Assembly: GCF_000455365.1 (NCBI RefSeq)
Contig: NZ_HG315684.1
Location: forward strand, 417,921 to 457,181
Length of the DNA stretch: 39,261 nt
Direction of reading: 5' to 3'
Source of the DNA: Halopiger djelfimassiliensis
GTDB lineage: Archaea; Halobacteriota; Halobacteria; Halobacteriales; Natrialbaceae
The translations under genes were made by a program, and so were the position numbers. Below the pieces are notes generated by a model. That model was not told the DNA's origin. It saw only the letters and a list, made by a program, of their open reading frames with translations, and ran no database searches. Positions 1-4,880 of the stretch are shown piece after piece (the first letter of the stretch is position 1; each line of letters starts with the position of its first letter).

Positions 1-867
1 GTCGCCTTACACGATCTGGCGGGTAAGATCCTCGAGGTGCCGGCCTACCAGTTGCTGGGCGGGAAGTACCGCGACGAGGTCCGGGTCTACTGCGACTGCC
101 ATACGGAAGCGGAAGCCGACCCGATCGCCTGCGCCGACGAAGCCGAGCGCGTCGTCGAGGAGTTGGGGTACGACGCGCTCAAATTCGATCTGGACGTTCC
201 GTCGGGCCACGAGAAAGACCGCGCGAACCGCCACTTGCGTGAACCCGAAATCGAGCACAAAGCCAGCATCGTCGAGGCGATCACCGAGCGCGTCGGCTCC
301 CGGGCCGACGTCGCCTTCGACTGCCACTGGACGTTCTCGGGCGGCTCCGCCAAACGGCTGGCCAAACGTCTCGAGGAATACGACGTCTGGTGGCTCGAGG
401 ACCCCGTCCCGCCGGAAAACCACGACGTTCAGCGCGAAGTCACCCGGTGTACGTCGACGCCGATCACCGTCGGCGAGAACGTCTACCGGACCCACGGCCA
501 GCGCCGCCTGCTCGAGGAGCAGGCCGTCGACATCATCGCGCCCGATATGCCCAAAGTCGGCGGGATGCGCGAAACCCGCAAGATCGCCGACCTCGCGGAT
601 CTCTATTACGTCCCGGTGGCGATGCACAACGTCGCCTCGCCGGTCGCGACGATGGCAAGCGCCCACGTCGGCGCGGCCATCTCGAACGCGCTGGCCGTCG
701 AGTACCACTCCTACGAACTCGGCTGGTGGGAGGATCTCGTCGAGGAGGACGTCATCGAGGATGGCTCCATCGAGATCCCCGAGGAGCCCGGTCTGGGCGT
801 TACTCTGGATCTGGACGCCGTCGCCGACCACATGGTCGAGGGCGAAGAACTGTTCGACGAGGCGTAA
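1..867 (+). CDS. Mandelate racemase/enolase-superfamily sugar-acid dehydratase-like protein (5' partial)
   Basis: The frame is open from the first base, so the true start lies upstream; 288 codons plus the stop are visible. The visible part is the (beta/alpha)8 barrel of the enolase superfamily. In order it shows a KFDLD segment at the position of the catalytic lysine strand, then three metal-binding acids (FDCHW, WLEDP, VGEN), then APDMPKVGG and AMHNVASP, whose Asp and His form the usual base pair. The family abstracts a proton alpha to a carboxylate using a magnesium ion. Haloarchaeal relatives include dehydratases of gluconate or xylonate type, and the DCHW and HNVASP signatures suit an acid-sugar dehydratase better than a racemase. 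The substrate cannot be read from the sequence. The family assignment is firm, the dehydratase role is inferred. Confidence 0.85.
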   Translation, partial: VALHDLAGKILEVPAYQLLGGKYRDEVRVYCDCHTEAEADPIACADEAERVVEELGYDALKFDLDVPSGHEKDRANRHLREPEIEHKASIVEAITERVGSRADVAFDCHWTFSGGSAKRLAKRLEEYDVWWLEDPVPPENHDVQREVTRCTSTPITVGENVYRTHGQRRLLEEQAVDIIAPDMPKVGGMRETRKIADLADLYYVPVAMHNVASPVATMASAHVGAAISNALAVEYHSYELGWWEDLVEEDVIEDGSIEIPEEPGLGVTLDLDAVADHMVEGEELFDEA

Positions 868-3605: not shown

Positions 3606-4370
3606 GTGAGCGATGGAGCGGAGTCTCGAGTCGACTGTCACGTGAAGGTGCTCGACGAGACGGTCGTCGAGCGTGCAAAACGCGCCGGCCTCGACGCGAT
3701 CGTCTACGCGCCCCATTTCACTCGGCTGCCGGAGATCCGCCGGGAAGCAAACGCCTACTCGAGCGACGAGTTGCTCGTCATTCCCGCACGTGAAGTGTTT
3801 ACAGGCTCCTGGCAAAACCGAAAACACGTTCTGGCACTCGGGCTCGAGGACCCGGTGCCCGATTTCATCCCGCTCGATGCGGCGATAGCCGAGTTCGAAC
3901 GACAGGACGCCACGGTGCTGGCACCGCATCCCGAGTTCGCGAACGTCAGCCTCGCCGAAGACGACCTGCGTCGGTACAGGGAAGTGATCGACGCCGTCGA
4001 AATCTTCAACCCGAAACACCTCCCGTTCCACAACCGCCGGGCGCGTAAACTGGCGGCCGCATACGAGTTCCCGCCCTTCGGTTCCTCGTACGCGCACCTC
4101 CCGAGTTCGGTCGGTATCGCACACACTGCCTTCGAGACGGCGATCGAGACCGAAGCCGACCTCATCGACGCATTCGAGGATCGGGTCGGGCGACGGGTCG
4201 TGTACGAAAACGGCTTCGAACGGATGCGTACGAGCGCGATCGAACTCGGCCACCTCTGTTACGAAAACACCTGGGAGAAGATCGACCGGCTCTTTCTCTC
4301 CGGCATCGAGCCGACACATCCCAACCACATCGCCTACGACGGACGGTTCGACGACGTCGCCGTCTACTAG
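3606..4370 (+). CDS. PHP-domain phosphoesterase-like protein
   Basis: The 254-residue protein starts at a GTG placed correctly after a TATA-like box. It shows PHP-superfamily landmarks: VDCHVKV near the N-terminus in place of the usual HxH motif, GLDAIVYAPHFT (the second metal His), IPAREVFT (Glu), VLAPHPE (His), FGSSYAHLPSSVG near the last metal site, and overall PHP spacing. PHP enzymes are metal-dependent phosphoesterases acting on nucleotides, nucleic acids or histidinol phosphate. The first motif reads DCHVK, so the N-terminal His pair is reduced and the metal site may be altered. Its stop codon overlaps that of the convergent 51-residue gene in a CTAG. The substrate is unknown. Confidence 0.75.
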   Translation: MSDGAESRVDCHVKVLDETVVERAKRAGLDAIVYAPHFTRLPEIRREANAYSSDELLVIPAREVFTGSWQNRKHVLALGLEDPVPDFIPLDAAIAEFERQDATVLAPHPEFANVSLAEDDLRRYREVIDAVEIFNPKHLPFHNRRARKLAAAYEFPPFGSSYAHLPSSVGIAHTAFETAIETEADLIDAFEDRVGRRVVYENGFERMRTSAIELGHLCYENTWEKIDRLFLSGIEPTHPNHIAYDGRFDDVAVY

Positions 4371-4522
4371 TCGTCCTCTAGCGCGTCGGCGATCCGCTCG
4401 AGCTGGATGCCGACGTAACACAGCGCCTGCGTCCGCATGATCGCCGGGTCGTCGCTCCATTCGTTAGTGATGTACGACGCCTGTTTGCCCGCACGGTCGA
4501 GGTGTTCGGTATCGGATGCCAT
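4367..4522 (-). CDS. 51-residue hypothetical protein
   Basis: The frame starts at the ATG complementary to 4520-4522 and encodes a 51-residue acidic protein, beginning MASDTEHLDRAG and ending RIADALEDD. Two helices are plausible, the second amphipathic (TQALCYVGIQLERIADAL). Its TAG stop and the TAG stop of the PHP gene share the palindrome CTAG at 4367-4370. It is below the usual length cutoff of gene finders, but the codon use matches the neighbours and the frame fills the gap between the PHP gene and the dodecin gene neatly. I know no function for it. Confidence 0.6.
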   Translation of the reverse strand: MASDTEHLDRAGKQASYITNEWSDDPAIMRTQALCYVGIQLERIADALEDD

Positions 4523-4673
4523 CGTCCGCGATCAACGTTCGGCGTCGATATCCGAAACGGTTCGGGTCCGGGTTACGGACACGGAGGAAACGGCCGCGAG
4601 GATAGCGGCTCGCGGGAAGCGGCATTATCACGCCGCGGAACTATGAGCGCTTGCGATGTCCGTTGGCTGGACC

Positions 4674-4880
4674 ATGGCCGAGACCGTCAAAGTCATCGAA
4701 CTGACCGGAAACTCGACCGAATCGTGGGAAGACGCTGCACAGAACGCGCTCGAGGACGCCGACGAAACGCTCGAGAACATCAGCGGCATCGAGATCGTCT
4801 CGCAGACGGCCGACGTCGACGGCGGAACGATCGAGCGGTACAAGACGACGGTACACGTCTCGTTCGCGCTCCAGCGCTGA
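4674..4880 (+). CDS. Dodecin family protein, lacking the flavin-stacking tryptophan
   Basis: The 68-residue protein matches the dodecin fold (beta-alpha-beta-beta) along its length: VKVIELTGNS, then the helix SWEDAAQNALEDADETLENI, then GIEIVSQTADVDGGTIERY and TTVHVSFAL. Dodecins form hollow dodecamers that store riboflavin or FMN. Aligned by eye to the Halobacterium salinarum dodecin, the strand reading VVWAEVVDQ there reads ISGIEIVSQ here, so the tryptophan that stacks on the flavin is a glycine. It may bind another ligand or none. I chose the ATG at 4674 because it fits the family start; an in-frame ATG at 4656 would add six residues. A TATA-like ATTATCA lies at 4625. Confidence 0.85.
   Translation: MAETVKVIELTGNSTESWEDAAQNALEDADETLENISGIEIVSQTADVDGGTIERYKTTVHVSFALQR

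Follow-up and report, generated by a model that had tools for sequence, protein, structure and literature searches.

A haloarchaeal dodecin with glycine and lysine in place of two flavin-pocket residues, and its relatives beside spore genes in Bacillota

We propose that a small dodecin from the haloarchaeon Halopiger djelfimassiliensis, encoded within a stretch of 39,261 nucleotides that we analyzed as a whole (the window; Table 1), has a ligand other than flavin. Both of its flavin residues are lost, and its relatives in spore-forming bacteria usually lie beside sporulation genes, so it probably holds something else. From its sequence, we think it quite probable that this is a non-flavin dodecin, and the predicted twelve-subunit shell very likely still forms. 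Our preferred explanation as a whole is that the shell was kept, that the pocket was emptied and became cationic, that a non-flavin ligand is stored, and that the Bacillota relatives take part in spore maturation; we hold it with some confidence, although less than we have in those two parts.

Table 1. The dodecin gene and three of its codons in the window (HsDod, dodecin VNG1446H of Halobacterium salinarum; PDB 1mog, 2cc6, and others)
Feature	Position	Strand	Basis
Gly/Lys-type dodecin gene, 68 aa	4674..4880	+	PF07311, fold match, dN/dS
Codon TGG, Trp18, place of HsDod Phe16	4725..4727	+	sequence alignment
Codon GGC, Gly38, place of HsDod Trp36 / Thermus Trp38	4785..4787	+	sequence alignment, fold match
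Codon AAG, Lys57, place of HsDod Gln55	4842..4844	+	sequence alignment

The open reading frame begins with the ATG at 4674 and its stop codon ends at 4880. A second in-frame ATG lies upstream at 4656; several relatives start at the place of 4674. The protein matches the dodecin family in Pfam (PF07311, E = 6.9e-24, 84.4 bits, gathering cut-off 22.5). As a chance control, we shuffled the protein 2000 times and scored each shuffle against a dodecin profile in which the window protein's own row is included; the best had E = 0.017. An AlphaFold2 single-chain model (mean pLDDT 87.3) matches solved dodecins with Z scores of 10.9-12.4, and the next listed fold has a Z score of 7.0. The residues of the studied function are absent, as they might be from a functionless and decaying copy, but that explanation is scarcely credible: of 12 orthologue pairs, 11 have a dN/dS (NG86) between 0.11 and 0.41 (the remaining pair, L078, is saturated at synonymous sites), and this type of protein keeps invariant positions of its own across 14 and 40 aligned relatives. 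These ratios indicate that the gene is under purifying selection.

The first-pass annotation had aligned the strand ISGIEIV with VVWAEVV of HsDod, which places a glycine where the flavin-stacking tryptophan should be, and we confirmed this. The window protein and HsDod are alike in fold and length and align over 61 residues without a gap, and in this register (score 107) Gly38 is opposite Trp36. No shift of the alignment moves an aromatic residue into the stacking place (eight other offsets were tried, with scores of -7 or less). The fold alignment with the Thermus dodecin pairs residues 2..68 with 2..68 (67 residues), so Gly38 sits on Trp38 of that protein. The only aromatic residues are Trp18, Tyr56, and Phe64. 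We rejected Trp18 as a replacement stacker: it is opposite Phe16 of HsDod, so it is not a displaced Trp36, and 3 of 56 rows with Trp36 also have a tryptophan at this place. Among pooled rows without Trp36, 100 of the 100 with a letter at this place have Trp (the pool has 156 rows, with some genomes counted twice). Passages of two papers describe the dodecin pocket as holding two flavins between symmetry-related tryptophans (PMC7414021) and Trp36 as the only tryptophan of the Halobacterium dodecin, where it quenches light-excited riboflavin (PMC12123629). With Gly38 at the tryptophan's place, the sandwich of flavins between tryptophans cannot form in the window protein, as the annotation had argued.

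The pocket has a second change. The conserved Gln55 of HsDod, which we take to hydrogen-bond with the flavin ring, is replaced by Lys57. Across 75 haloarchaeal PF07311 loci, gathered blind to form, Gln55 is present in all 55 Trp rows and in none of the 20 Gly rows. We also examined 50 rows from samples of Bacteroidota and Planctomycetota and from five chosen genomes: 24 of the 25 Trp rows have Gln (the remaining one has Glu), and so does just 1 of the 23 non-Trp rows (two fragments were unscored). Trp36 and Gln55 occur together or vanish together, so the dodecin family splits by this pair of residues, with the window protein on the non-flavin side. Glycine by itself is not diagnostic, as four Planctomycetota rows have Gly inside a Ser-type group (see below). 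The NCBIfam models give a similar picture: the window protein scores 53.3 bits against dodecin_Halo (cut-off 100) and 50.5 bits against DodecBact (cut-off 75), and none of the five other Gly forms that we tried reaches either cut-off.

Flavin might still be bound in some other way, as a single flavin or an unstacked dimer, with Lys57 on the ring or the phosphate. The fold and the position of the pocket are retained, and a W38F mutant of the Thermus dodecin was crystallised as a dodecin (title of PDB entry 2vyx). However, Gly38 offers no ring, Gln is missing from the same rows, and of the 19 haloarchaeal genomes in which the Gly form occurs, 18 have kept the Trp form as well, so we consider altered flavin binding improbable.

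The Trp form is also present in H. djelfimassiliensis itself. A second dodecin with Trp was sought in this genome and found (G000:C3:4319-4510, motif NLYWIEI); it also has the Gln that goes with Trp36, and dodecin_Halo accepts it (123.3 bits, cut-off 100). Of 61 haloarchaeal genomes searched, including this one, 56 contain a dodecin: 37 have the Trp form only, 18 have both forms, and one has the Gly form only. The Gly form is thus found in 19 of the 56. Counts that we term unselected derive from PF07311 searches. A further set of loci is the best 80 of 181, and since these were fetched by patterns that include the Gly motif, Gly is partly selected in that set. In public records, close relatives of the window protein are named merely "dodecin family protein."

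Because the two forms share the fold, and also share one cell in 18 of 19 genomes, they might form mixed dodecamers in which the Gly form tunes the flavin load. We think this very unlikely. The Gly form is the sole dodecin of one haloarchaeal genome, and no Trp row was found among 95 rows from Bacillota samples, so the Gly form works there without a partner.

The haloarchaeal Gly forms are of two kinds. In 19 of 25 rows of the second kind (type 2; for example L095, L096, L101, and L109), there is a Trp six residues past the Gly. One genome (G027) has a third, diverged Gly-type dodecin (L073) besides one Gly form and one Trp form. Another haloarchaeal dodecin (L083, 8001-8204) has Glu at the place of the Gly (ISEIGI). 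Elsewhere, the frame of a Trp-type dodecin (L279) is broken by one TGA, in a genome (G303) that also has an Ile-type dodecin.

Much of the interpretation in the first-pass annotation stands: the Trp sandwich is lost (and Gln with it), a Trp paralogue is present, and the Gly forms make up a conserved and separate group. What does not stand is the framing of the Gly as an odd haloarchaeal substitution. The Gly form is not confined to haloarchaea, as it is common in Bacillota and is the usual form there; it represents one branch within a large portion of the dodecin family that has no Trp. In a sample of 149 Bacillota genomes, 91 have a dodecin. We read 95 rows from this phylum sample and from a second sample at the level of class: 94 have Gly and one has Glu, and all have Lys or Arg at position 57. 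(The Glu is in ITEVEI of L274, which is a spore locus.) Of 37 genomes in the Thermoanaerobacter class, 24 have a single dodecin; each of these dodecins adjoins spore genes, and the 23 that could be scored all have Gly with Lys.

The Bacillota dodecins tend to lie in a particular place. We read 92 of the 93 dodecin hits in the phylum sample, and in 83 of these 92 loci the flank contains one or more of spoIIAA, spoIIAB, sigF, spoVAC, and spoVAD. (No spore gene was detected in the flanks of the other nine: L199, L226, L229, L232, L240, L251, L266, L276, and L277.) When the Bacillota loci are pooled, 86 of 121 have sigF upstream of the dodecin and spoVAC or spoVAD downstream of it. The sigF, spoIIA, and spoVA genes were called with single-query phmmer (E of 1e-5) within flanks that spanned roughly 1.5 to 2 kb, and five of the phylum or pooled matches are on the opposite strand. 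Pfam confirmation of these calls covers L134, from Thermoanaerobacter wiegelii, plus one GerA-family neighbor in L103. According to Pfam, the order in L134 is D-Ala-D-Ala carboxypeptidase, STAS, HATPase, sigma factor, and then the dodecin; past the dodecin are a SpoVAC-type protein, SpoVAD, and a second protein of the SpoVAC/SpoVAEB type.

The presence of the dodecin also tracks the presence of SpoVAD in two of three sets of genomes. Across the 149 genomes, 90 have both, 37 have SpoVAD only, 1 has the dodecin only, and 21 have neither (Fisher test, 2.8e-9, treating related genomes as independent, with weak SpoVAD matches in G184 and G246 scored as absent). In the single dodecin-only genome, the contig ends past spoVAC. 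In the class that includes the L131 genome, the corresponding counts are 9, 18, 0, and 32 (p = 3.7e-4, with the same treatment of relatedness). In the Thermoanaerobacter class they are 23, 13, 1 (a fragment at a contig end), and 0, which is uninformative. Spore formers can dispense with the dodecin: it is absent from 37 of 127 genomes with SpoVAD in the phylum sample and from 13 of 36 in the Thermoanaerobacter class, and the Bacillus subtilis control genome has no match to PF07311. Overall, the context of these genes makes a putative sporulation-linked role likely for the Gly forms of Bacillota.

The Gly/Lys dodecins of Bacillota (such as L134) resemble the window protein at three positions (Gly38, Trp18, and either Lys or Arg at 57), and they fall in the same part of the tree. 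In contrast, they mostly adjoin spore genes, between sigF and spoVAC, while the window gene adjoins other genes, with neither sigF nor spoVA genes beside it. On one side of it are a 51-residue open reading frame and a gene with a PHP-associated domain, and on the other side is a Mut7-C gene. The 51-residue frame (4367-4522, - strand), which separates the dodecin from the gene with the PHP-associated domain, has no Pfam match; four relatives (L079, L084, L085, and L089) have it at 78-86% identity. We rejected the idea of a recurrent haloarchaeal partner gene, as the window's neighbors are rare among the best 80 of 181 loci (PHP-associated 5, Mut7-C 6, PolX-like 7, rhomboid 6, endonuclease V 6, and HtrA-like, SecE-like, and Spt5-like 3 apiece). 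In the 25 type-2 haloarchaeal loci, the top neighbor cluster recurs in no more than 6. The clusters of spore-gene neighbors include no haloarchaeal locus, so the context in Bacillota is not directly transferable.

To place these forms relative to each other, we built a tree of 104 rows, picked at fixed steps from sets of 156, 95, and 50 rows, together with three fragments from the PDB; repeats and rows of under 52 residues were dropped, and the alignment has about 60 columns. The Trp and non-Trp rows lie on opposite sides of one branch (support 98/82). The haloarchaeal Gly forms make up one group (95/92), which bears out the suggestion that they are a separate clade, and this group is nested, along with Gly rows from Bacillota, in a larger set (94/88, not starred). 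In a quick tree with the two trait columns removed, Trp versus non-Trp still requires one change, Gln versus non-Gln requires three, and the window protein is in no starred set. The tree speaks against an origin of the Gly form by duplication of the Trp form within haloarchaea; an AU test does not reject a single clade of the haloarchaeal Gly and Trp forms (p = 0.126). On these short sequences, the support from the tree is limited.

Two more kinds of non-Trp dodecin are in the tree, with Val/Ile or with Ser. The Ser-type dodecins of Bacteroidota and Planctomycetota resemble the window protein in lacking Trp36, and one row alone has Gln55. Unlike the window protein, they form a separate group (97/90) and have Ser (Gly in four rows) in another sequence context. 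Three of them (L301, L318, and L319) have a Trp two residues past the place of Trp36, which might, or might not, offer another means of stacking a ligand.

The Val/Ile rows include PDB entry 3onr (Rv0379 of Mycobacterium tuberculosis), from which a Trp-less dodecin is already known. The title of this entry calls it a calcium dodecin. In our alignment, 3onr lacks both flavin residues, as the window protein does, and has Val and Arg where the window protein has Gly and Lys. The window protein might be a strict calcium dodecin, with a Ca2+ site and a role as in Rv0379, and a profile of the Gly forms does match 3onr best of all PDB entries (2e-13, compared with 5.1e-12 for HsDod). However, the single window sequence favors the flavin dodecins (1e-9 for 2vxa, 1.4e-7 for HsDod, and 4.2e-6 for 3onr), the Z score of 3onr in the fold comparison (10.9) is below those of most flavin dodecins, and in the tree 3onr is on a long branch with the Val/Ile rows (100/96), away from the Gly rows. 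We consider a strict calcium dodecin unlikely.

Our preferred explanation remains a dodecin for a small non-flavin ligand. The predicted twelve-subunit shell would be retained, while its two-fold pockets would lose the pair of indoles (to Gly) and gain positive charge (from Lys or Arg). These pockets would hold the ligand, so that the shell might buffer or store it. The usual place of the Bacillota genes, between sigF and spoVAC-spoVAD, suggests a role in the maturation of spores, which may be the handling of Ca2+, of dipicolinate, or of their complex. As stated in portions of one paper, SpoVA proteins are required for dipicolinic acid to enter the forespore, and the acid is present in the core of Bacillus spores as its calcium salt (PMC4959285).

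Calcium is a candidate ligand because of the title of 3onr, its first rank among PDB entries in the search with the Gly-form profile, and the spore locus. It is disfavored because single-sequence scores favor flavin dodecins, because 3onr is in another group, and because the haloarchaeal genes lack spore neighbors. For the haloarchaeal Gly form, a Ca2+-related ligand is a candidate that we put forward tentatively and with more doubt than belief. We know of no haloarchaea that make spores, so for these we would guess at a simpler common ligand, such as a divalent cation or a small anion. A bolder version would make the Gly/Lys dodecins a second functional class. Its Bacillota members would store or pass on Ca2+, dipicolinate, or their complex in the forespore, next to the SpoVA channel, and their haloarchaeal relative would buffer a related ligand in a cytoplasm that is rich in salt and poor in water. 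This is a speculation, and rather unlikely to be right in full.

Dodecin is usually described as a flavin-storage protein. We did not find the Gly/Lys class or its spore locus in the open-access literature that we searched, and a section of one paper terms dodecin flavin-binding and reports it from every genome studied there (PMC12029414). If our proposal is correct, then a two-residue rule (both Trp36 and Gln55, or neither) would tell flavin dodecins from the others. As a haloarchaeon can have both kinds of dodecin, the ligand of the second kind could be compared side by side with that of the first. The link to spores is the part of these findings that is most worth following: usually adjacent to sigF and spoVAC-spoVAD in Bacillota, the Gly/Lys type may be a soluble part of spore maturation.
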